This document shows positions 3,141 through 54,700 of a DNA stretch of 64,000 nt, piece by piece. Where the stretch lies: the NCBI RefSeq assembly GCF_965363235.1, contig NC_134847.1:48732805-48796804 (forward strand), in the 5' to 3' direction. Under the pieces are notes generated by a model. That model ran no database searches and was not told the DNA's origin. It saw nothing but the letters and a program-made list of their open reading frames with translations. Positions within the stretch are counted from its first letter, which is position 1; each line of letters opens with the position of its first letter. The DNA is from Mytilus galloprovincialis (taxonomy: Eukaryota; Mollusca; Bivalvia; Mytilida; Mytilidae). A program made the translations under genes and the position numbers.

Positions 3141-3416
3141 AGACCGGTATGATTATAAAACAATCAAAAACATTTACAGGAGTTTATAAACAAAATATAT
3201 CACAACCAATTTTAATATTAACTGCTTGTAAAGATACTATATTTAAATATTTGCCACTGGACGTTTGCAATTCAACACTTTATCAATTAATTTATTTATT
3301 TATTTGTGCGTTTCATTATTTACTAATTTTATAGTACCCAATTACCTAGTGCCTCTCTTTTGAACTATGTCTGAGCGAGAATTAGATAGATGCAATAATT
3401 AAATATATTTCAAATT

Positions 3417-13653: not shown

Positions 13654-14576
13654 TGACTGGAAACACAACTTAACCATCTTTTAAGAAACATAACTCCTGA
13701 AAGAAAAAGTGAAATCGCCATTATTGAACTTGACCTCAATTTTTTCATCAGTAACAGCAATAAAAAGGCAGCATTTTTAAATTTAAACTTAGTGGTGTTC
13801 TTGTTTTATATTCAAATACGGAATGTTCATAATTACATGAATTGGTATTCTTGGCATTTTGAATTCTGTTCATAAATAATAACATAAACAAAGACTCATT
13901 GATGCTATTGTTTATTATACATTAGGATAATGTAGATATAAAAATATGAAATAATCATCTTTTTTTTCAATATATACATTTGTACATACCAACACAATCT
14001 TGCTAATTATCAAAATTAATTACAAGGAATCATCCCTGATATGACTATAAACATGATAAATCATTCATAAGACAGAAAAGAAGGAAAGAAAAAAAAAGCA
14101 AAAAGTTCAACTTCAATAAAGCACAGCAGTTTTGTTTTACTTTACAATCTCCAAAACAAACATTATAGTACACAATCCCCCTCAATATAATAGGTTTTTT
14201 TTAAATTAGTTTCAATGAAGTTTTCCCAATAGATAGACTCCTAATTAAAGTTTTACAAACCTTGACTGTTGGGATAATTTTGAAGGAAATTTATAATTTA
14301 CGTTTTATTAACCACCATATTCATGTTATTCAAAGACAATTACAATCTGGATCAAGATTTATGGGTAATCTCCCTTTTATCTTAATAAACCTGTTTTAAG
14401 GAAAAATAATCCCTTACACATTTTTTTCACAAAATCTTACAATTTATATAAAAATATATTGTAACAATCTATTCAAGAGCCTACAACATATACAGATTGA
14501 AATCTTTTTTTTATTTTTAAAAAGATTGAAACATATTCTATTAAATATACACATGATTATGATGATATATATACAA

Positions 14577-15242
14577 CAAGAATGTGTCCAAAGTACACGG
14601 ATGCCCCACTCACACTATCATTTTCCATGTTCAATGGAGCATGAAATTGGATAAAAAATATAATTTGGAATTAAATTAGAAAGATCATATCATAAGGAAC
14701 ATGTGTACTAAGTTTCAAGTTGATTGGACTTCAACTTCATCAAAAACTACCTTGACCAAAAACTTTAACCTGAAACATGCACTTTCATTTTCTATGTTCA
14801 GTGGACCGTGAAATTGGGGTCAAAAGTTTAATTTGGCTTTAAAATTAGAAAGATCATATCATAAGGAACATGTGTACTAAGTTTCAAGTTGATTGGACTT
14901 CAACTTCATCAAAAACTACCTTGACCAAAACTTTAACCTGAAAAACTTTAACCTGAAACATGCACTTTCATTTTCTATGTTCAGTGGACCGTGAAATTGG
15001 GGTCAAAAGTTTAATTTGGCTTTAAAATTAGAAAGATCATATCATAAGGAACATGTGTACTAAGTTTCAAGTTGATTGGACTTCAACTTCATCAAAAACT
15101 ACCTTGACCAAAAACTTTAACCTGAAGCGGGACAGACGGACGAACGAACGGACGAACGAACGAACAGACGGACGGACGAACGAACGAACGGACGCACAGA
15201 CCAGAAAACATAATGCCCCTCTACTATCGTAGGTGGGGCATA
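14577..15242 (+). repeat. Dispersed repeat (GTACACGGATGCCCC family) with tripled core
   Basis: Starts CAAGAATGTGTCCAAAGTAC and ends CGTAGGTGGGGCAT. A core of roughly 170-190 bp (CTTTCATTTTCTATGTTCAG to CTTTAACCTGAA) is present about three times in tandem, followed by a GACGGACGAACGAACG tract at 15,127-15,190. The matching place in copy B (near 18,675) lacks the whole block, so it arrived after the region was duplicated or was lost from B. Confidence 0.8.
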
Positions 15243-15475: not shown

Positions 15476-17041
15476 CATGATTATATGTAATCAAATTTAA
15501 CATAACATTTTTTTTTAATCTGTACATACCTGTAATTTTGAATTCATAGTCCGTAATGTCCATGGTTTTGTGAAATGTAGTCCTGGAGAGATTTCTACAC
15601 CAGCTGGATATTCGATTGCTGTTGCACGTCTGTCTGCTTCCTTCACAGAATCAGTTGATAAACTCCAGGGTGCTGGTGTAAGAGTCTCGCTACTCATAGT
15701 TTTTCTTTTTTTTGATGGTGGTTCAATTGCAACCTGCTCTGCTGCTGTCTCTTGTTGCCATGTCTGTGGAAACCGCTTGTGATGTTTTTCGCAGAGACGA
15801 ACTTTTTTGGTGTCAGATTTCCCAACCAGCAGGTCCATTACATGACTTATGAAATCTGCTATGGTATGCATTCCGTCTGGTTGCATCTGCTGGTTTCTGT
15901 CATGATAGGGTAACTTCATAATACTGTATTTTCCTTTCAGTCCAGTGGCCTTCTGAAAATTATTTTGTTGATTTCTGTTTGGTTTATTGTCAAATATTTC
16001 TCTCAAATGTCGTTCGTCTTCATTGGTGAATGTGACTGGCTACTTTTTCAGTTCCACTGATCCATTTGAGAAGCGGTTACTACTACGCAAAGGATGGTTT
16101 TCGGGAAGAAACTGTCTATTTGAAAAATGAATAGTCTTACTTAAGATGTTTGCAATAAATACCAGTTTCTTTGCAATAGCCACACGATCTTAATCCACTA
16201 TGTCCACTTATATGTAACAGTTTTGTCAGGCAGGAATGTCACATAAAAATTGCAAAAGGACAACTTTCACTTTTACTGGTGCTTTGCGGTAGCTGTTGTA
16301 TGTAGGGAATTCCGTTAACTGAAGTATTTCATCAACCAGCAAATCTATGTAGGGTTCCAGTGACTTTAGTTCTGATCCATTTCTTCCACTTGGTATTATC
16401 CTTACTAAAAGCATTGGACCAAGAAGTTGACGGATTTGAACTGGTAAGTTTATCCATGTTAACAAGAGTGGCCACATAGACTTTTGTGTTGATAAATGTT
16501 TATTTGGGTTAACCCCATCTTTAAAGAGTGCTAGTGGTACAGTTTGTTGTTCCTCATGATCACCAAATACACCTTGGGCTGTATACCAGTTTTTGTAGAC
16601 ATTGCTATCTGTAAAGTCACATAACTTTCCATTTGAATACACTTTATTTGCGTAAAGAAGTTTACACATATTTGACGTAACAAACTATCTGTTTAGTCTC
16701 GGTGCAATTGGCATGTAATGAAAAACTTTCTGACTGGAATTTTTTACTTTGCGTGGTTCTTGACAGATAGGACAAGACGCTAAGTCACTATAATTTCCAT
16801 TGTCACACGACCTGAACAAAATGCAGTCATTAATGCAGGCATCATACTTTTGTAACGGAATTAATAATGGCTTTATCAAACTTTTACCTTCTTTAAATGT
16901 TGGAGGTAAAGAATTGGGTTGTGGCAAATGAGACTTCTCTGTCTGGAGAGCATTTGACATCGCTGACAAAAATATGTCGGCATTTGTCATGTTTGTATCT
17001 ATGACAATTTGTGTATGTCTCATTGTTGTGAACTAATTGGA
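15476..17041 (-). pseudogene. Tnp2-type transposase, copy A, internally deleted
   Basis: Minus-strand remains of a transposase of the tnp2 family (EnSpm/CACTA-like DNA transposons). In reading order: a splice acceptor near 17,041; FKEGKSLIKPLLIPLQKYD and a CxxC pair (SCPICQEPR); KVFHYMPIAPRLNR; LFKDGVNPNKHLST followed by MWPLLLTWINLP, the signature core; PSGRNGSELKSLEPYIDLL; and after a gap GKYSIMKLPYHDRNQQM, QPDGMHTIADF and a basic tail ending at a donor (GTATGT) next to 15,532. The two aspartates in DGVNP and PDGMH match conserved acidic positions of this family as I remember it. Two tryptophan codons that are intact in copy B are stops here (after PRLNR and after CDIPA), both TGG to stop. 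The zinc-cluster exon present in copy B is missing. Confidence 0.8.
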
Positions 17042-17765: not shown

Positions 17766-18914
17766 TGACTGGAAACACAACTTTACCATCTTTTAAGAAT
17801 CATAACTCCTGATAGAAAAAGTGAAATCGCCATTATTGAACTTGACCTCAATTTTTTCATCAGTAACAGCAATAAAAAGGCAGCATTTTTAAATTTAAAC
17901 TTAGTGGTGTTCTTGTTTTATGTTCAAATACGGAATGTTCATAATTACATGAATTGGTATTCTTGGCATCTTTGATTCTGTTCATAAATAATAACATAAA
18001 CAAAGACTCATTGGTGCTATTGTTTATTATACATTAGGATAATGTTGATATAAAAATATGAAATAGTCATCTTTATCAATATATACATTTGTACATACCA
18101 ACACAATCTTGCTAATTATCAACATTAATTACAATGAATAATCCCTGACTATAAACATGATAAATCATTCATAAGACAGAAAAGAAGGAAAGAAAAATAA
18201 AGCCAAAAGTTCAACTTCAAAAAAGCACAGCAGGTTTTTTTTACTTTACAATCTCCAAAACAAACATTATGGTACACAATCCTCCTCAAAGCAATATTTT
18301 TTTTTAATTAGTTTCAATGAGGTTTTCCCAATAGATAGACTCCTAATTAAAGTTTTACAAACCTTGACTGTTGGGATAATTTTGAAGGAAATTTATAATT
18401 TACGTTTTATTAACCACCATATTCATGTTATTCACAGACAATTACAATCTGGATCAAGATTTATGGGTAATCTCCCTTTTATCTTAATAAACCTGTTTTA
18501 AGGAAAAATAATCCCTTACACATTTTTTTCACAAAATCTTACAATTTATATAAAAATATATTGTAACAGTCTATTCAAGAGCCCACAACATATACAGATT
18601 GAAATCTTTTTTTTTTTTTATTTTTAAAAAGATTGAAACATATTCTATTAAATATACAAATGATCATGATGATATATATACAAAAATGAAAATAAGAAAA
18701 AAACCTAATTAAAATAAGTCAATGCCTAACTTTGTATCACAGTCAACACAATAATAAGTGAGTTCAATGTTAGTCAACAAACAGGCTATTTTTGTACTTT
18801 TCTTTGAAGTGTTATCATGGTTATAATATTCCATAAACAGAATTCATAATATATAGTTTTAGACCATGTATGATGACTCGACTGGTCTCTTAAAATATGT
18901 TAAATAAATAATTA

Positions 18915-20482
18915 TGTTGCACGTCTGTCTGTTTCCTTCACAGAATCAGTTGATAAACTCCAGGGTGCTGGTGGAAGAGTATCGCTACTCATAGTTTTTC
19001 ATTTCTTTGATGGTGGTTCAATTGCAACCTGCTCTGCTGCTGTCTCTTGTTGCCATGTCTGTGGAAACCGCTTGTGATGTTTTTCGCAGAGACGAACTTT
19101 TTTGGTGTCAGATTTCCCAACCAGCAGGTCCATTACATGACTTATGAAATCTGCTATGGTATGCATTCCGTCTGGTTGCATCTGCTGGTTTCTGTCATGA
19201 TAGGGTAACTTCATAATACTGTATTTTCCTTTCAGTCCAGTGGCCTTCTGAAAATTATTTTGTTGATTTCTGTTTGGTTTATTGTCAACTATTTCTCTCA
19301 AATGTCGTTCTTCTTCATTGGTGAATGTGACTGGCTACTTTTTCAGTTCCACTGATCCATTTGAGAAGCAGTTACTACTACGCAAAGGATGGTTTTCGGG
19401 AAGAAACTGTCTATTTGACAAATGAATAGTCTTACTTAGATGTTTACAATAAATACCAGTTTCTTTGCAATAGCCACACGATCTTAATCCACTATGTCCA
19501 CTTATATGTAACAGTTTTGCCAGGCAGGAATGTCACATAAAAATTGCAAAAGGGCAACTTTCACTTTTACTGGTGATTTGCGGTAGCTGTTGTATGTAGG
19601 GAATTCCGTTAATTGAAGTATTTCATCAACCAGCAAATCTATGTAGGGTTCCAGTGACTTTAGTTCTGATCCATTTCTTCCACTTGGTATTATACCTACT
19701 AAAAGCATTGGACCACGAAGTTGACGGATTTGACTTGGTAAGTTTATCCATGTTAACAAGAGTGGCCACATAGACTTTTGTGTTGATAAATGTTTATTTG
19801 GGTTAACCCCATCTTTAAAGAGTGCTAGTGGTAGTTTGTTGTTCCTCATGATCACCAACTACACCTTGGTCTGTATACCAGTTTTTGTAGACATTGCTAT
19901 CTGTATTAAAAGTCACATAACTTTCCATTTGAATACACTTTATTTGCGTAAAGAAGTTTACACATATTTGACGTAACAAACCATCTGTTTAGTCTCGGTG
20001 CAATTGGCATATAATGAAAAACTTTCTGACTGGAATTTTTTACTTTGCGTGGTTCTAGACAGATAGGACAAGAAGCTAAGTCACTATAATTTCCATTGTC
20101 ACACGACCTGAACAAAATGCAGTTATTAATGCAGGCATCATACTTTTGTAACGGAATTAATAATGGCTTTATCAAATTTAAACTTTTACCTTCTTAAAAT
20201 GTTGGAGGCAAAGAATTGGGTTGTGGCAAATGAGACTTCTCTGTCTGGAGAGCATTTGACATAGTTGACTTAGACATTCCATTGTTTTTAATGTAACACT
20301 TGAACTTTCATATAAATTCTGGCTAAAGTTTTCCTTGAGATAGAGATTTTCATCAAATAATATATCTGGTATGATCTGGCTTTCATCAAACTTAAAAACC
20401 TTCTGCTTGTGTGCGTAATAAGTCTTTATATTGACATTTGATCCTCTGCATAACATACAGAAGCACTGCTTGTAACATGAAC
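18915..20482 (-). pseudogene. Tnp2-type transposase, copy B
   Basis: Same protein as copy A with more of its 5' side. An exon opens at 20,482 after TTTTCTTTTAG and encodes CYKQCFCMLCRGSN, then YYAHKQKVFKFDES. Its C and H spacing looks like a zinc-binding DNA-recognition head, as expected at the N-terminus of this family. It continues through YLKENFSQNLYESSSVTLK into the QTEKSHLPQPNSLPP region, CILFRSCDNGNYSDL with SCPICLEPR, LFKDGVNPNKHL, PSGRNGSELKSLEPYI, then DNKPNRNQQNNFQKATG and PDGMHTIADFISHV. The tryptophans that are stops in copy A are intact here. Frame changes occur near 20,275, 20,190 and 19,915, and 145 bp near 18,914 are lost, so it is also non-functional. Phase fits splicing from the exon at 27,721-27,799. 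Confidence 0.8.
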
Positions 20483-26093: not shown

Positions 26094-27104
26094 GATACAT
26101 GTAATTGCTTACATCCTTCTCATTCAAACTTTGGTGAATAGTTGTCTTATTGACAATTATACTGCGTCCTCATTTTTTCTTATTATAAATTTAACTTATA
26201 AATGTGACTTTGTAAATTGTTGTTTCAAAGTTGTTTTTATTTAGGTTTCTGTTTTAAACTAAACTATATATTGTTTTACATTTTTAACAGAGTATATACA
26301 TGTATATATAAACCAAATACTTACAAGTTTATTCTCCCTACATTCAAAGATTTGTATAGTAAATACAAATCTTTGATAGTCATATTACATTTATTTTTTG
26401 GGATGAATTAATTAACAGATTCACTGCACTTCTTAGTTAATGACTTTTGAAAATAAAAGGAATATTCACACTGTACATTTACTGATTTCTTGCTATAAAA
26501 AAACATGAAAAATTTCGGTATAAATAATAATATTAAACATCTACACACGTCAAAAACACATGTCTTTAGAGTCGCCTTCGATGACAACGTACATGTAACA
26601 GTGCCACTATTTAAGTTATATCTCAATATAGAAGATGTGGTCAACTGGTCTAAAGCCCTTGACATGAAGATAAGCAATTGGTGTTGTAGTGTATCAAAGG
26701 TGTGACTTTGAAGTCCACTAAGGGACAGACAAAAATATGTCAGCATTTGTCATGTTTGTATCTATGACAATTTGTGTATGTCTCATTGTTGTGAACTAAT
26801 TGGAAATTTAACAATTTTTAACCCTTAATTAAATCTGTTTCTCTTTCCCATCAGGACATGCAAAATTTAAAAAAAAACCTTTGCATAACGTACATGTACA
26901 TGCTGCAATAACATGAATAATGTGAAGTTGTATGAGCCCAGTTTCTCTTGTCGTTGTGATTTATTTCCTGTTTAATCTGTCTTTATAAATTATTCATACA
27001 TGTATAGACTTTATATAAATTTATCTATGCATGAACATATGACTTATTCCGTTTATATATTTCTTTTCTTTTTATCAAATACATTTTTGTTTTCAACACT
27101 GGCA
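26094..27104. other. Non-coding; copy B similarity resumes at 26,728
   Basis: From AAAATATGTCAGCATTTGTC on, the sequence matches copy A from about 16,974. Before that nothing is recognised. On the - strand at 26,408-26,746 the open frame has no domain. Confidence 0.45.
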
Positions 27105-27107
27105 TTA

Positions 27108-27393
27108 GGCAGCAACCATTTGATTTTCTGTGGGGGGGGGGGGGGGTGGGGGGTGGGGGCTATGTTTTTTTTTTGAAAAAAAAGTTTGTTTCCAGTTTTT
27201 GGAGAAAAAAATAATTTGTTTTTGATTCTGAGAAAAAAAAAATGTTTGTTTCATCCTCAGCTGCCACTATATGTAATGCTAAAACTGAAAGAAAAAAATT
27301 GTTTTTGACTTGTTGCGAAAAAAATAGAACATAGCCCCTTCCCCCTTCCCCCCCCCCCCCCCCCCCCCCCCAGAAAATCAAATGGTTGCTGCC
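27108..27393. mobile_element. Harbinger-like MITE with G and C tracts, copy 1
   Basis: Ends GGCAGCAACCATTTGATTTT and AAAATCAAATGGTTGCTGCC are exact inverses. Each is followed inwards by a long pure tract, G on the left and C on the right, so the tracts can also pair. TTA is duplicated on both sides (27,105-27,107 and 27,394-27,396). The matching place in copy A reads GGCATTAGACTGG with a single TTA, giving a clean empty site. A TTA/TAA duplication is typical of PIF/Harbinger elements. Confidence 0.85.
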
Positions 27394-27720
27394 TTAGACT
27401 GGAGTTGACTGACTCAGAGTTCTAATTAATTAGCCATAAAAAAATAAGACAAAACTTTTATATTTATAATATTGACTTGTCAGCCATCTTGGAAATTCCC
27501 ATCACCACATACACAAATTTTGAAAATGAAGCATCATCTAGTGATCATACTAAATGTACTACCTCATTAAATATCTTATTTCTTTCATTTAAAGTATCAA
27601 CAGATTATAAAAGAAGTCAAAAACAATACAAGATATAATTAGGATGCTTATTATTACCAATGACAGGCATCAATGTAAAAGATCTAATTAGCAAATAAAA
27701 TATCAAAGGAATTTACTCAC

Positions 27721-37534: not shown

Positions 37535-37690
37535 TGAGAATGGAAATGGGGAACGTGTCAAAGAGACAACAACCCGACCATCAAGAAGACAACAGCAGAA
37601 GGTTACCAACAGATCGTCAATGCAGCGAGAAATTCCCCCACCCGGAGGCGTCCTTCAGCTGGCCCCTAAACAAATATTAATAGATATACA
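37535..37690 (-). repeat. SINE-like bivalve repeat (GACCTGTTGGTGACC family), copy 2
   Basis: Contains the inverse words GAATGGAAATGGGGAACGTG and GACAACAACCCGACC. It continues beyond the part present in the other copies (CCCCCACCCGGAGGCGTCC). Confidence 0.7.
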
Positions 37691-38165
37691 AAATCTACCG
37701 GTTTCATTGTAAAGGCATTGTGCAGACAATCTATGTCTGCTAATATATGGCTTTAACACATAGTTTACATGTTTTTTTTAGGTAAAATTGTAGAGTATCT
37801 GGATCGTGTATATACATGTATCTATAAAAATTACACTTTGATGACTCATTGAAAAAAGCATTCATTTCACTGACAAAACTACATTTCATTCTATTAACAA
37901 TTTCTAGCAAAAACAGATTAACATAAATAACATTTTGGTGTAACCATACATCTTGACAACCATAACGAAAAAATAAGTTTCTTATTTCACATGCCCAATT
38001 TTGTTTGTCACGAGGTTTTAATATTTCTTGGTAGCAAGATTGTAAAATACAGTTATCTGTTTTCAATAATTTACAGCAATATCTAAGCATTCTACAACAT
38101 ATCTCTATGTACAACGGATATCTACCAAACTCACTATATACCATATAATTAAAAGTAGTTGTTTT

Positions 38166-38350
38166 GACTTTCAATATACGTTTTACCTTAGCCGTTTTTG
38201 GCACAACTTTTTGGAATTTCAGACCATCAATGCTCTTCAACTTTGTACTTGTTTGGCTTTATAAATATTTTGATTTGAGCGTCATTGATGAGTCTTATGT
38301 AGACGAAACGCGCGTCTGGCGTACTAAATTATATTCCTGGTACCTTTGAT
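38166..38350 (+). repeat. SINE-like repeat (GCGCGTCTGGCGTA family) inside the LINE
   Basis: TTTTGGCACAACTTTTTGGA and GACGAAACGCGCGTCTGGCG. It separates the LINE thumb region from its C-terminal domain. Confidence 0.75.
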
Positions 38351-38478
38351 AACTATTAAAAACTTCGACTACGACTAAACAGCTAATTTTATATACTAGA
38401 TACATATGTGTCAAAAACAGATAACATAGTTTCATGGTTAAAACGGTCATCATATATTTTACTATATTAACTAAATAC

Positions 38479-39502
38479 TGATTTTCTACCCTGATTTGTT
38501 AACATTTTCTTTGTATGTACAAAGTTACCATTGTATTTTAAACAAGAAGACTAAGATATGTAAATTCATCACATAATTCAATAGCAACACCATAGAAGTA
38601 CCATGTTTCAGTAGCTTGAACGAGGACTCTATTTCTAAACACAACAATTTTGGTTTTAGACAAGTTTATATCCAAATCATACTCTCTAGAATATATGACT
38701 ACACTGTCTATCATCTTTTGTAAACCATCAATAGTTTCACTAAAAAGAACTGCATCATCTGCATACATTAATAAATTTAAATTGAGCATCTTTAACTCAT
38801 ATAACTGACAACCTTGACTAATAGGTTCATTTTCAATGTCATTAATATACAATGAATATAAAAAAGGAGATAATGATTCTCCTTGCATCAATCCAACATT
38901 ACTTTGGAAGAAATTTGAAAAATGTTTCCACTTATACCACATCTGATATATCTTAACCACAATTTGAAATGAGACACACTATCAAATGCTTTTGAATAGT
39001 CTATGACACAGCAATAAAAATCGTTTCCCACTACACAAAGACTTAGAAATTGGAGAATGGAGTGCAAAGATGGCATCAGTTGTTCTATAACCTGGTTTAA
39101 ATTCAAACTGTGTATCGGTTATTTATATTGTGTTTTTCGCTCCATTTGGTAAACCTGGTGTTAATAATTGATGTGAACAGTTTACCCACATGTGATACGA
39201 GAGAATATCCACGATAATTTCCAGGGTCGTCTACTGGTCCTTTTTTAAAAACTGGTATTATAATGTTGTTAACCCATATTTCTGGAAAATCGCTAGCACT
39301 CAATATACGGTTCAACAGTTTACATAATACTGGTTTGATCACGTTTCTGCTCGTTAATATATATTCGTTCATAATATTGTCATACCCAGTGGATTTATCA
39401 CGTTTTAGATATTTAATAGAAGTGTCAAGTTCCAAGTCTGCAAAAGGAGAGTCTTATTCTTCATATACGGCATCTGTGATAGAATCACGGTGCTGATCTT
39501 GT
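38479..39502 (-). repeat. 1,024-bp direct repeat, LINE copy
   Basis: Spans the LINE reverse transcriptase from DSITDAVYEE through YADD to NQGRKS. It matches 41,411-42,434 (offset 2,932) with only a few substitutions. Similarity stops abruptly at both ends. Confidence 0.9.
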
Positions 39503-40151
39503 GGTGACATCTTTTGAAATCAGGTTTTTAAAATTTTTTTTTCAAATACCTCTACAGTAAGCGTATGGGTAACAGTTTTTTGCGCTTTTTAAATTTCCTG
39601 TAAAATTGTTTAGGGTTATTGTACGTAATATAGATAACATATCCCCTTTTGGTTTTTATATTGTCTTTTCAGTTGAGGTTCCAATCGTTTGTATCTTTGT
39701 TCAAACGTAGTCTATTTTCAATCGACCGGTATCTATTAAACTTCATCATAGTTCATAGATAGTGCTCATGGATAGTCTTTGTATAAACTTTTACATTCGT
39801 CTGAAAACAATGGTTTATCATCTTTTTTGTCACGTGTTTAACTACTTGTAGGGCATTTTGTATTTTACCTCTGACTGTGTATTGCTCAAATATATCTTTC
39901 AAAAGTTTATTCAATTCATCAATATCGCTAATTTCGTCTATACTTGTGAGTAAGTGTTCAAATTGCTGAGCGTTCAACAATAAACTGTCTCTGATTTGAT
40001 CTTCGCACCCCTCGTTCCATTAAAAAATATCACAAACATGGTTAATACAATTACACTGGTTTTTAGTTACAACATTATCAGTAAAATTAAAATCAACTTC
40101 TAGTGGTGCATGACAAGAGAAATGATTAAACGATCCAACAGAAAAACTATT

Positions 40152-40325
40152 ACACCCAATTTACAATAACCTTGACAAATATCACTACTAGCCTTGTTAA
40201 TAGACTGTTCGACTATCTTCTCTACTACTTGATTGTCTATTATTGTCATTTGTGTCCCAATGAGTTCTTTACAAAACTATTTAGTAACGCTTCGAATACC
40301 AGATAATTAGTTGGCTTGGTCGTCA
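40152..40325 (+). repeat. Left inverted repeat of the Tc1/IS630-type element
   Basis: Includes GACTATCTTCTCTACTACTT and AATACCAGATAATTAGTTGG. It matches 46,288-46,454 inverted with about ten differences. Confidence 0.8.
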
Positions 40326-40439
40326 TTGAGTTGATAAGTCATTGTTATATCATAAAAAGCCTACAGTTAAATTTCATTTGTCCAACTGGACAGGGCATGA
40401 TATTGGTATTCATCGTATGTCCGAATTATAAATAAACAA

Positions 40440-40590
40440 TCATTTTAATAAAATGAGGAAGATGTGGTATGATTGCTAACGAGATAACTCTTCACAAGAG
40501 ACAAAATGACACAGAAATTAATAACTATAGGTCACCATACGGCCCTCAACAATGAACAATTTCTATACCGCATAGTCAGCTATAATAAGT
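40440..40590 (+). repeat. SINE-like bivalve repeat (GCATAGTCAG family), copy 3
   Basis: GATGTGGTATGATTGCTAAC, CAACAATGAACAATTTCTAT, CCGCATAGTCAGCTATAATA. It lies just 3' of the transposase stop. Confidence 0.7.
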
Positions 40591-40594
40591 GTTT

Positions 40595-42678
40595 TTACAA
40601 ATAACCACATCCACGAAATATAGAAATAGACTTTGAAGCATAAACTTGTCCTAGACCGTCACATATAGCCATCTCAGTCAATTCACGTGCGTAAATCGTA
40701 TGTTTACGCAAATAGTCTTTCATTACTTTAAAGCATACTTCACACGTATTCAAGTCTGGGTGATATGGAGGTTGATATAATAAGTCTATGTGACGGTGTC
40801 CCAAAATAAATCTAAGTGTATTTTCGGCGAATCTACCGTGGTGGAAGCCACAATTGTCCATAACAACAGTGTCCCCGGGACGTAAGCAATAATTTCCAAA
40901 TCGATCTTATTCTTGTAAAGCATAACAAAAGTCAACGAGATGAAATCCATTTGAAGGGCCTTCTAAAACATTAAAATAATCCATTCCAAATGGCCCATGA
41001 AGGCGGTTTACCGTGTTGGTAGTATTGGAGGCATAGTTTTGTTCCTCTATAGCCTTTTCCCCTACTGTTGCATGTATATAAAGTCTATTTCCAGTTGTTT
41101 TTATGACAGATGATTCGTCAAAGAAATGTTAAGAATAAGGATTAATTGCAAAGATAGTATTTATATATTCGTCAAATCGTCGTTGGTTCTCAGCACTTAA
41201 CGCTTCCTTAGCACATACATTTAACTTTTTGTGTGACATTAGGCAGTCATTTCTCAAAATTTTTGAAATTGTAGAAAGACTTGGCAAACGATCATTTGTC
41301 GTTTCTCCACCAGACAATAACTTACTTTGAAGTTCTTTCCCATAAATCGATGGCTGGCGAAATTTATAGTATCTTATAGCCTGAACAATGTCTTCGGAAC
41401 TTTTAAGCCTTGATTTTCTACCCTGATTTGTTAACATTTTCTTTGTATGTACAAAGTTACCATTGTATTTTAAACAAGAAGACTAAGATATGTAAATTCA
41501 TCACATAATTCAATAGCAACACCATAGAAGTACCATGTTTCAGTAGCTTGAACGAGGACTCTATTTCTAAACACAACAATTTTGGTTTTAGACAAGTTTA
41601 TATCCAAATCATACTCTCTAGAATATATGACTACACTGTCTATCATCTTTTGTAAACCATCAATAGTTTCACTAAAAAGAACTGCATCATCTGCATACAT
41701 TAATAAATTTAAATTGAGCATCTTTAACTCATATAACTGACAACCTTGACTAATAGGTTCATTTTCAATGTCATTAATATACAATGAATATAAAAAAGGA
41801 GATAATGATTCTCCTTGCATCAATCCAACATTACTTTGGAAGAAATTTGAAAAATGTTTCCACTTTTACCACATCTGATATATCTTAACCACAATTTGAA
41901 ATGAGACACACTATCAAATGCTTTTGAATAGTCTATGACACAGCAATAAAAATCGTTTCCCACTACACAAAGACTTAGAAATTGGAGAATGGAGTGCAAA
42001 GATGGCATCAGTTGTTCTATAACCTGGTTTAAATTCAAACTGTGTATCGGTTATTTATATTGTGTTTTTCGCTCCATTTGGTAAACCTGGTGTTAATAAT
42101 TGATGTGAACAGTTTACCCACATGTGATACGAGAGAATATCCACGATAATTTCCAGGGTCGTCTACTGGTCCTTTTTTAAAAACTGGTATTATAATGTTG
42201 TTAACCCATATTTCTGGAAAATCGCTAGCACTCAATATACGGTTCAACAGTTTACATAATACTGGTTTGATCACTTTTCTGCTCGTTAATATATATTCGT
42301 TCATAATATTGTCATACCCAGTGGATTTATCACGTTTTAGATATTTAATAGAAGTGTCAAGTTCCAAGTCTGCAAAAGGAGAGTCTTATTCTTCATATAC
42401 GGCATCTGTGATAGAATCACGGTGCTGATCTTGTTGCACCATGTTGATATTTTACGGGAGATACAGAACCATATAATTGATATTTATCAATGACATTGCA
42501 AACCGTATTGTGGGAAACGGCATAGTGTTTTTAAAAAATGTATGGTTTCCTGAATATACATGTCTAGAATACTCTTTATTTTTACAACATTAGTAGCCTT
42601 TCCAACTTCATAGTATCTTCCAAATGAATTTTGGTTGATCATATTACATGTACTGTGATGGAATACATGTATGTACAA
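40595..42678 (-). pseudogene. Tc1/IS630-type transposase split by an LINE segment
   Basis: The N-terminal helix-turn-helix part lies at 42,678-42,435 (NSFGRYYEVGKATNVVKIK; then, in a shifted frame, AVSHNTVCNVIDKYQLYG and SVSPVKYQHGA). The rest lies at 41,410-40,595: RLKSSEDIVQAIRYYKF, RQPSIYGKELQSK, SLSTISKILRN, the first catalytic aspartate in FFDESSVIKT (about 41,128-41,099), the second in VVMDNCGFHHG (about 40,865), and the glutamate in HPDLNTCEVCF (about 40,760-40,730), ending RGCGYL before a stop at 40,595. The DDE triad and PPYHPDLN box fit the DDE_3 domain. A 1,024-bp piece of LINE sits between the halves. There is also a frame change near an A-run at about 42,530, a stop after AINPYS near 41,130, and another near 40,910. 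Not functional. Confidence 0.85.
41411..42434 (-). mobile_element. LINE reverse-transcriptase segment inside the transposase
   Basis: Near-identical to 38,479-39,502. It is internal LINE sequence only: it lacks a LINE 3' end, a poly-A tail and target duplications. It is therefore not an ordinary retrotransposed insertion. At its left edge the LINE residues NQGRKS run straight into the transposase residues RLKSSED in the same frame. Confidence 0.9.
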
Positions 42679-43231
42679 CTGTTCAGCTTTTTACTTTGAG
42701 GACCGTTATATTTGAAAACAGTTATTTTTCAACTTATAAGTACATTTTGTACAAGGTATATACATACATGTATTCATCATTACAAGTACAAGTACATGTA
42801 TATAATCTATAGATTTATTTTAAAAAGCACTCACATGCCATCCTTTCTACTATTAATGAACTATAATTTAATCTTATTCATTTCTATACTTCCAAAATGG
42901 ATGATATGACAGTGACTGAATTTCTTTCTCAAATTGGGTAGAAATTTGTACAATATTCGGATTATTTCGTTCAACAGGAATTTCTGAATGTCTCTTCGCT
43001 ACGCTGTAATCACATTCCGGATGACATTAATTCATTATTGGAACTGTATTTACATTAGGAGAATGAGACAAATTGAAAATGCCCTCATGGAATTAAAAAA
43101 ATGTCGCCGTAAATGAAAAAGAAATTGGAAAATTTGAACCTGAATCTTCGACACTTAACAAAATTCCCGGAAAGCTTGAAGACAGACTATCACTGAAAAA
43201 AATAGAACTGTCAAATAAAGAACACCAACTA
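42679..43231. other. Interior of Tc1/IS630-type element, unidentified
   Basis: Short open frames only. From about 43,060, runs such as ESLKTDYH and KKIELSNKEHQL on the + strand continue beyond the MITE as RQLEMPIEEPPPQGNWNY (43,613-43,670). They may belong to a second coding region that I cannot identify. Confidence 0.35.
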
Positions 43232-43614
43232 AGACCCCGTTTACACTGACAAAAAAGATCGATCTTTACTAAGATCGATCTTAAGATCGATCTTTGGTCC
43301 AGTGTAAACGGGTTAGATCGATCTTCAATCGGACTTAAAAAGTCTGCCCCTAGAGGTGGTTTTAAAAAGATCGATCTTTTTGTTGGTGTAAACGCTTAGG
43401 TCGATTGCGATCGATCTTTTTTCGGGTGAATGTTATATTTAGATACAAAATAAAGGTCAGACCGGTTATTTTTATGTTGTAGTGTAAATGCACTGGATTA
43501 AATAAGATCGATCGCGATCGATCTTCCGTGAGCAATGTAAACGCAACCTGAGTTTTTTAAGATCGATTCAAATAAAGATATCGATTCAATTAATTTGTGG
43601 TGTAAACAGCGTCT
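43232..43614. mobile_element. 383-bp TA-flanked MITE rich in GATCGATC palindromes
   Basis: AGACCCCGTTTACACT at the left and GGTGTAAACAGCGTCT at the right are near-exact inverses, with TA on both sides (43,230-43,231 and 43,615-43,616). Inside, AAGATCGATCTT-type palindromes occur about ten times, and GTGTAAACG words in both orientations flank them. No coding capacity. TA duplication suggests a mariner-type relative. Confidence 0.8.
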
Positions 43615-43958
43615 TAGACAACTGGAAATGCCTATAGAAGAACCACCACCACAAGGAAATTGGAATTATAGGTAAATGTTTCTGGATTTACCTTCATCAG
43701 GAACGCTCAAAGCTAAACATTTGAAATCTGAAGATGTATAAGTACCGAAACCGTTGAAGAGCTATATGTCAAAAAACCTTAAATAGATAGCCAAATTCAC
43801 CCCCCCCCTTTTCCCGCCCCACCTGAATATAAAGTGGTCGTCCAAAGACAAACCGAGTCAAAATAAAACTGATTACTATAGATAAAAACTATAGATAATC
43901 ATACCGTTTCATACGACCTTCAACTTAACAAGTTATTCCGATACCGTGTAGACTAGTT

Positions 43959-46174
43959 CACGGCCGACACTCGGCTAACCGAGAGTTTGGTCGGTTAATC
44001 TATATTGAGTATGCGGCTATATGGGCGGTTGGTCTGTTAATCGGGTTGGTTATACGTCTGTTAAGAGTAAAATGCACAATTTAATGTTAAACTCTGTTAA
44101 ATATACAGATTTTTTGGCAAATTATAAGAACCAAATCAAAAAAAGAAAAGTGTCTGACAAAATGATATATATCATAGAACATTTTCCACCTGTAAACAAA
44201 TTTCATAGTCTGCGCAGTTTTCAGTAAAACTAAAAGGCGTCGCGCAAGTATGCAGTATTTATGCTTATACGCATAGCAATATTTTTAATAAAAGGCGAAA
44301 CAAACAATTTTAGATATGACCTTTTAAAGGACACAAAATAGTACTTTGGTTCTAAAAAAAAATTGGCAGTAGTAAATATTTCATAATTGTAAAATAACGT
44401 GAATAATAGCACGTTTTAGGGGAAAATATGGGAATGAATGTTAATGGGTTGGACAATTAAAATTGTGTCAGTTAAGAGTTATTTAGCCACGACAATAGTT
44501 TTGCTACCTTTATATTTTCCCATTGAAGTTAAGAATGAGATGTTCTAACTTGAGTAAAAAAAAATGACAATACGGTGCAACAGTATCCTTTTAGTAAAAG
44601 ATTTTTATTTTGATTTTCTTTGCATTTTATTGAAGGGTGTGTCACTTCAATATAGCGTGAATATGGCCACTGGAATATGCATGAATTTATGTGTCTGTTC
44701 AAAGTAGCACGTTCTAAAATCCGACTGAAAGTGTCTATGCACATGCTATTTGTCACTGGACGTTAAACCCTAATTCGTCAGTATCATCCAATTGATTCTT
44801 TTCTTCTATTACTTCATCATAAGTTTTTTTTACAAATCATTCTAAAGAAGTAAATGGAAAGGAGCGAATACAGCTATATTTGGTTATCTTAAATTTTAAT
44901 TCATTTTATTCCGTTTAGTTCCTTTCTACATAAGTACAGAGGAACTGTAGTTGTCCGCATGTAAACGTCTAGCATTTATCACCAATTTGAAAACATTGCA
45001 ATCCGTTACTGTTTCAACACCCAGGAATGTTTCATGTCTGTATTCTTAAACAATAATATTTTTTTCTCTCTTTTTTTAGCAATGCATCACTCTCTACTGT
45101 CCTTATATATTATTCTATAGTATGCGTCTCCATCCAGATTCTCGTGTATACCATGAGGGCCTAGATTTTAGGTGTTGTTTATTTCTGTATTCTTTAAATT
45201 TGTATGTCACTTTTCCCTAGATTTTATTTATTTTACTCATTATTCTTTCTCTATTCTTTATATTTTAGAATCTCAATATATTTTACTTACTGTTGTTTGG
45301 TTACATTACGACGTTTATCTCTGATTTATATACTAGTTACCAATGTAGATGACGAATGGGTGTCATTCATGACAATTAAACAGAATCCACATGATATATG
45401 CGACTATTCTTGGATGAAATTTATATTACTTTAATATTACACTTTTTGAAACCATTTTTATCAAAATTTCCATTGTCTAAATTGTTTATTGTTCATGTGT
45501 TGTTTCCGTTTATTTATGTTTCGTTGTTTATGTGTTGTTTCCGTATATTTTAGCCACTCGTCTTGAGCCTACCCATTTGATCCGATAACACCCCATATAG
45601 CAATAAAATTATACTTTTATTGTCATTCATAACTCTTAACAGACCAATTAACAGACCGGGTTTTATACATCCGACCCATTAATAGACCAGGTTTCTACAT
45701 AAAAATTGATTAATGTCACCAAAATACAGATTTTCGTGTAGATTTTTCACACAATGATATTAATATGGTTAACACACATAATGCCTGTCTTTTTTCGACG
45801 TTCAAAATATTGCATACAAGCAAATTCAACCAACGTGTCATTTTGTGTACATTTTGTGTGTGTAAAATGTGTATAAATTTATTGATGAGTAACCCGCCTT
45901 TTCATTTTATAGATCGTTTATCGAAGCTAGAAAAAAAAATAATTACACCACTGGATTCAGTACATTGAATTGTTTTGTCAGACGTAAATAATTTTTATGA
46001 TAAAAGTATATTTAAAAAGTTATACAATGAAACATACTGAACGTGCACTGATTTTCTCGATAACACCTGATTAACAGACTTTAGCCAACCCGATTAACAG
46101 ACCAACCGCCGATATAGCCCATACTCAATATAGATTAACCGACCAAACTCTCGGTTAGCCGAGTGCCGGCCGTG
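43959..46174. mobile_element. 2.2-kb element with 90-bp inverted ends, AGTT duplication
   Basis: CACGGCCGACACTCGGCTAA at the left and TTAGCCGAGTGCCGGCCGTG at the right pair, and the match continues to GGTCTGTTAATCGGGTTGG, about 90 bp with few mismatches. AGTT is duplicated outside (43,955-43,958 and 46,175-46,178). Several extra TTAACAGACC words occur within (44,030-44,060, 45,635-45,690, 46,065-46,105). A CAC terminus with a 4-bp duplication recalls Chapaev-type elements. No transposase recognised. Confidence 0.8.
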
Positions 46175-46287
46175 AGTTCAAACGAAAAGATCAACACGAA
46201 ACAAACATGCCTTTTGAGTTACGTGTTATTCATTAGCAAACTAGATTAGACAACAAAGAGTAATCAAGTAATTGAAAAACTTGAAAC

Positions 46288-46454
46288 ACCAAGCCAACTA
46301 ATTATCTGGTATTCGAAGCGTTATTAAACAGTTTTCTAAAGAACTCATTGGGACACAAATGACAATAATAGACAATCAAGTAGTAGAGAAGATAGTCGAG
46401 CAGTCTATTAACAAAGCTAGTAGTGAGATTTGTCAAGGTTATTGTAAATTGGGT
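46288..46454 (-). repeat. Right inverted repeat of the Tc1/IS630-type element
   Basis: CCAACTAATTATCTGGTATT onward; inverse of the left end. Confidence 0.8.
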
Positions 46455-46459
46455 GTAAT

Positions 46460-46760
46460 AACAGTGAACATAATATTCTGTGAAATTAACATATAGTCTA
46501 TTACACTACACCCATTCTTATTGTTGAATGTCATTTTCTTACTTTCTTTACCAAATCTTCCGTTACAAATACGTAGCCCAGAGTTTTACATAGCTGCAAG
46601 ATCCGTTGGTCAAAATTATTAGGTGGTTTGATATCTTCCGAGTGTCTGTCTAAAAATACATCATCATTTACATAATTAAGGAAAGAAATGTTGTCTTGTA
46701 ATTGTTTGTCTATAACATCACCTGTTATGTTGCCGGGTATTATTATAATATTTATCATTT
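46460..46760 (-). mobile_element. LINE endonuclease fragment (5' part of the split LINE)
   Basis: MINIIIIPGNITGDVID then RILQLCKTLGYVFVTEDL, followed in another frame by NKNGCSVIDYMLISQNI, the pattern of an apurinic-type endonuclease just before its SDHxP-like box. That box is found at 40.1 kb (FNHFSCHAPL), on the other side of the Tc1/IS630-type insertion. Confidence 0.7.
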
Positions 46761-54425: not shown

Positions 54426-54431
54426 TGATAA

Positions 54432-54636
54432 GGCAGCAACCATTTGATTTTCTGGGGGGGGGGGGGGGGGGTATGGTTTTTTTTTGGAAAAAACAGTTTG
54501 TTTCCAGTTTTTGGAGAAAAAAATAATTTGTTTTTGATTCTGAGAAAAAAAAATTGTTTGTTTCACCCTCAGCTGCCACTATATGTAATGCTAAAATTGA
54601 AAGAAAAAAATTTGTCCAGAAAAAAAACCATAGCAG

Positions 54637-54675
<39 letters not shown>

Positions 54676-54697
54676 AGAAAATCAAATGGTTGCTGCC
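54432..54697. mobile_element. Harbinger-like MITE with G and C tracts, copy 2
   Basis: Same family and orientation as 27,108-27,393: GGCAGCAACCATTTGATTTT and its inverse at the ends, a G-tract and a longer C-tract inside, TAA duplicated at 54,429-54,431 and 54,698-54,700. Confidence 0.85.
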
Positions 54698-54700
54698 TAA

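Follow-up and report, generated by a model that had tools for sequence, protein, structure and literature searches.

In plant genomes, chromosome breaks filled by copied DNA are reportedly familiar: Vaughn and Bennetzen and Wicker et al. are said to have described such filler DNA in grasses and, in rice, the patch-mediated repair of breaks. For the human genome, 824 probable proximal duplications, sought inside interrupted transposable elements (TEs), were reported by Pace, Sen, Batzer and Feschotte (2009; PMC2671141). In that report, whose genome surveys are of vertebrates, the human proximal donors lie within 5 kb, the microhomology spans 2-9 nt, and the length reaches a maximum of 619 bp with a mean of 162 (PMC2671141). 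A total of 753 of 1,136 duplicons (66%) lie under 3 kb from their donor; among 39 proximal cases inspected there, poly-A was absent and 34 carried a deletion or filler (PMC2671141, Table 1).

The stretch of DNA analysed here, hereafter the window, comprises 64,000 nt of Mytilus galloprovincialis (GCF_965363235.1, NC_134847.1:48,732,805-48,796,804, forward strand), and the genome searched is a single assembly of 1.38 Gb in 331 contigs, representing one individual of one species. Within the window, a DNA transposon lodged in a LINE carries a patch of LINE sequence. The features of a proximal repair-mediated duplication, namely an interrupted TE, a donor within 5 kb, junction microhomology and no tail, are all found at this locus, where, as in the cases described by Pace et al., proximal chromosomal DNA is copied into the element without poly-A (PMC2671141). 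The empty site is read here from other copies of the transposon, much as those authors, for species without close relatives, relied on a TE consensus (PMC2671141). Unlike their human proximal cases, with a maximum of 619 bp, the patch measures 1,021 bp; its donor, moreover, is a repeat, whereas their pipeline demanded a single other genomic copy and thus discarded such donors (PMC2671141). The absence of deletion or filler fits the rows 'MH+TSD' or 'MH only', which account for 5 of the 39 inspected cases (PMC2671141). The single-copy requirement serves to make donor calls confident. Here other LINE copies match at 66-93%, and shared mutations identify the donor instead, so that the patch is of the same kind as these duplications but would not necessarily pass on to their list. 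In the literature search, nothing was found that joins templated insertion to bivalves, or the title phrase of Pace et al. to invertebrates, and no title on such patches appeared among the matches listed.

A transposon, its LINE and the patch

The host of the patch is a Tc1/IS630-type DNA transposon of 6,303 bp, patch included, that occupies 40,153-46,455 on the minus strand. Elements of the Tc1/mariner/IS630 type are recognised by a TA target duplication, terminal inverted repeats and a DDE transposase, and all three are found in this element. The left terminal inverted repeat (40,148-40,320, plus strand) matches the right one (46,288-46,460, minus strand) over 173 bp at 96.5%, a few flanking bases at either end being included in the match. 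The TA lies on both sides of the transposon, at 40,151-40,152 and 46,456-46,457, and occurs once in the uninterrupted LINE copy L005, where the resuming LINE overlaps at L005 positions 3258-3259. Domain matches on the minus strand comprise DDE_3 (E 2.4e-10) and PAX (E 3.3e-7), the latter read as a helix-turn-helix, and the list of open reading frames shows the minus-strand transposase interrupted by stops as well as by the patch. Elsewhere in the element, about 140 bp are missing at 40,584-40,590 relative to four close relatives (L010-L013), and in the alignments with L010 and L011 the gap flanks share 7 bp, as in microhomology-mediated deletion; to the right of the patch, 43,235-43,560 is rich in words containing GATCGATC.

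The LINE in which the transposon sits is also read on the minus strand. Its left part, 37,687-40,152, is homologous to six other genomic copies (L003-L008) and contains an RVT_1 match (38,538-38,978, E 7.2e-16), and its reading frames are broken by stops in the list of open reading frames. Beyond the transposon the LINE resumes at 46,456-46,738, with 94.7-95.4% identity to five of the six copies; the sixth, L003, has no match to this segment in the stretch compared. One internal interval, 38,186-38,383, is unalignable to the six copies and consists mostly (38,183-38,361) of a dispersed repeat. This repeat of about 175 bp recurs at many genomic sites at about 95% identity, and elsewhere it is sometimes paired, about 355 bp apart.

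The donor stretch of the LINE (38,479-39,502, minus strand) and the patch (41,411-42,434, minus strand) were claimed in an earlier note on this DNA to agree at almost every base, and the claim holds: 1,022 of 1,024 positions are identical, on the same strand and with zero gaps (blastn 99.805%, E 0.0), which rules out chance similarity of the two blocks. The only other pair above 1 kb in the self-comparison of the window stands at 96.8%. Two of the figures given earlier need a narrower reading. The spacing of 2,932 bp is correct from start to start and not as a gap, since 1,908 bp lie between the copies; the 1,024 bp are the aligned length, and the insertion measured against the pre-insertion site is a net 1,021 bp. 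The second copy does interrupt the transposase, in its N-terminal region: the frame of the relative L012 reads ...SPVKYQHGATRLKSSEDIVQ... without a break across the site. The two mismatches fall at 38,934/41,866 (A in the donor, T in the patch) and 39,343/42,275 (G and T), which amounts to 0.1% per copy with a Poisson 95% interval of 0.01-0.35%. The patch is a further interruption in an already stop-broken transposase, with no evident function.

Other repeats are present in the window. Direct duplications at 15,620-16,967 and 18,915-20,269, and at 13,654-14,579 and 17,766-18,686, show 95-97% identity; the pairs lie 3.3 and 4.1 kb apart from start to start, are more diverged than the patch and are possibly parts of one larger duplication. 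Two related segments, 27,104-27,394 and 54,428-54,698, have internal inverted arms, which in the latter (54,431-54,471 against 54,698-54,658) are identical over 41 bp, and perhaps represent a foldback or MITE-like element.

Source of the patch and direction of copying

The earlier note asked whether the patch is closest to this very LINE, and no closer LINE copy was found among the matches listed. A genome search with the patch, in which 40 of 171 first-look candidates were scored, returned at least 55 matches; among those listed, none exceeds 93% except the two copies in the window, and the other LINE matches range from 66 to 93% over the stretches that they cover. Six near-full-length matches stand at 86-87% with gaps counted; for the six best other copies, identity to the donor is 92.6-93.2% outside gaps. 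At 60 substitutions and 68 indel columns common to donor and patch, these six best copies agree on a different state, although they are 97.7-99.9% identical to one another and hence not fully independent. At the 60 sites, the base of donor and patch is found at 2 of 49 covered sites in the C39 copy (L048; L039 covers part of the same copy), at 0 of 21 and 0 of 3 in the copies at C2:114.95 Mb and C2:39.88 Mb (L044 and L046), and at 4 of 23 in a more distant C9 copy (L040); the C7 fragment at 22,399,577-22,400,075 (93%) and other partial matches lie outside this test of shared changes. Among the copies scored and compared, an origin from another LINE is ruled out by the 66-93% identities, the 60 shared substitutions and the 68 indel columns, and on these sequence comparisons the source of the patch is this very LINE. 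Both differences between donor and patch are placed on the patch side because all six other copies carry the donor base; the changes are either copying errors or later mutations, two kinds that look alike.

The direction of copying is from the LINE to the transposon, because nine relatives of the transposon are without the patch. In a genome search with the left flank, in which 40 of 3,225 first-look candidates were scored, the site is uninterrupted in 9 of the 9 relatives that, among the loci compared, have a left flank extending to 41,410, the right flank directly adjoining the left. They lie on C1 (two), C3 (one), C5 (four) and C7 (two), with pairs among those on C5 and C7, so that the nine empty sites are not fully independent. 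A pattern that spans the insertion point recovers these nine places again and by its design matches only uninterrupted sites; the independent count is accordingly the flank-based one, not that of the pattern search. A tenth relative, on C8 (L015/L028), has no match to 40,961-42,904 and is therefore uninformative on the site. Since the patch comes from this LINE, the copying most simply postdates the entry of the transposon into it.

Copying in the opposite direction, from the transposon into the LINE, is ruled out by the continuity of the donor with the LINE on both sides together with the relatives that are without the patch. The homology to the six copies crosses both donor ends, extending over 38,384-40,152 (38,384-39,599 for L003) and again over 37,687-38,185, which also rules out a mobile unit with ends of its own. 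A peptide, MLTNQGRKSRLKSS, can be read across the left junction and could have hinted at copying from transposon to LINE. Its part MLTNQGRKS is encoded within the patch and common to the donor LINE, where L012 has HGATRLKSS; because these bases belong to the patch, the frame running on across the junction is accidental. There is likewise no sign that the donor has been overwritten, because its divergence (0.073-0.082) resembles that of its own LINE flanks (0.053 on the left, 0.053-0.060 on the right).

Within the loci compared, close relatives of the transposon gave no second patch: two other insertions, of about 1 kb near C1:55.82 Mb and of about 3 kb (27 bases unread) near C1:60.54 Mb, show no local duplication. 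The former, at 176-1167 of L011 (C1, about 55.82 Mb), has inverted copies of CAGACCTGCCAACT at its ends and TGATAT at its flanks and looks, from its ends, like another small DNA transposon.

Junctions, probable repair and its alternatives

In L012 the pre-insertion site reads AAGC-CTTGT-TGCACC. At the left junction (41,409-41,412, plus strand) the transposon reads CTTG, of which TG (41,411-41,412) is common to the donor at 38,479-38,480; at the right junction (42,430-42,434, plus strand) CTTGT is common to the donor (39,498-39,502) and the pre-insertion site. The exact ends of the patch are ambiguous because of this microhomology, which also accounts for a 3-bp loss hinted at by the match coordinates and rejected here. 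Relative to the pre-insertion site, 1,021 bp are gained with no transposon sequence lost and no filler, no poly-A tract lies at either junction, and a search allowing up to 2 mismatches finds each junction at a single place in the 1.38-Gb assembly. Ordinary LINE retrotransposition is recognised by a 3' end or tail together with a target duplication, a combination that this internal patch lacks. The earlier description of internal LINE sequence with neither 3' end nor tail thus stands, and that of a missing target duplication is to be qualified to at most a 4-bp repeat: CTTG of the pre-insertion site is present on both sides of the patch, and is read as microhomology, while a 4-bp target duplication would be formally possible on the sequence.

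The proposal that a break in the transposon was filled by copying the adjoining LINE is supported by the source LINE, the empty sites, the microhomology, the absence of loss and the absence of a tail. We consider it very probable that the patch is a repair-mediated duplication, in which a broken transposon was mended from the LINE 2.9 kb away. The TA duplication shows that the Tc1/IS630-type transposon first entered the LINE at a TA. At a later time, a chromosome break or fork collapse would have occurred in the transposase gene at CTTGT, and pairing through TG would have brought one broken end on to the LINE, 2.9 kb upstream, of which about 1 kb would have been copied, the template probably lying on the sister or homologous chromosome. 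Once freed, the new strand would have been linked to the other end by means of the 5-bp CTTGT. The product, a same-strand copy of 1,021 bp of internal LINE sequence with zero transposon loss, is what is seen. The junction microhomology, together with the absence of loss and of a tail, fits the expectation for templated repair, and the break and a pathway such as SDSA, break-induced replication or template switching may be inferred from it; SDSA and template switching would look alike in the product. When this LINE and L012 are joined at random, 0.8% of joins show a right microhomology of at least 5 bp, and 0.8% also reach 7 bp or more for left and right together. A left microhomology of 2 bp or more, the length seen here being 2 bp, arises in 19% of such joins; this counts against the repair reading, as do a length beyond the human proximal maximum and the lack of deletion and filler.

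Several other histories could be imagined for the same product. In one, which we hold to be unlikely, the transposon was excised and the gap refilled from the sister chromatid, the copying strand slipping once onto the flanking LINE and then returning. If so, the restored transposon would contain part of the site into which it had inserted, and such scars would be marks of past excision-and-restoration events. Less likely still is an artefact of the assembly or library, the dull alternative of the earlier note, in which a chimeric molecule or a misjoin put a second LINE copy into the transposon. The junctions do rest on one assembly, and the block length reported by the aligner happens to equal 2^10. 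However, both junctions link non-homologous sequences, whereas confusion between repeat copies would be expected at homology; the two mismatches between the copies are both changes in the patch; the insertion is exact relative to the nine empty sites; and the power of two stems from the microhomology, the inserted length being in fact 1,021 bp.

A templated insertion made through RNA is very improbable, although the template is a LINE, whose transcript fragment might have been reverse-transcribed into a break as a class 2 or endonuclease-independent insertion. Human class 2 templated insertions, with microhomology and with neither tail nor target duplication, are attributed to RNA by Onozawa and Aplan (2016; PMC5110952). 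The patch resembles them in its copied sequence, presumed break, microhomology and want of a tail or target duplication; theirs are distant in origin and attributed to RNA, whereas the source here is a neighbour on the same chromosome (PMC5110952). A DNA template is favoured over RNA because the template is the adjacent, stop-broken copy, 2.9 kb away and in the same orientation, though other copies of the family exist and an RNA route would have no evident reason to pick the neighbour. Close direct repeats are able to convert each other. It is equally improbable that the patch is older than its 0.2% divergence suggests and that gene conversion between copies 2.9 kb apart has kept them similar; with two differences only, a mosaic would be invisible either way, and conversion would alter the age of the patch and not its origin.

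What the locus means

Taken as repair by copying of the neighbouring LINE, the locus is one well-documented instance of a repair scar of known kind, unusually clear and long. As such it illustrates cleanly, in nature, the copying of more than 1 kb of neighbouring DNA during break repair, and the donor, the acceptor, nine pre-insertion sites and the polarised changes can all be seen within one assembly. Repeats that bear mutations of their own can serve as traceable donors, and surveys that drop repeat-derived patches may therefore undercount such events.
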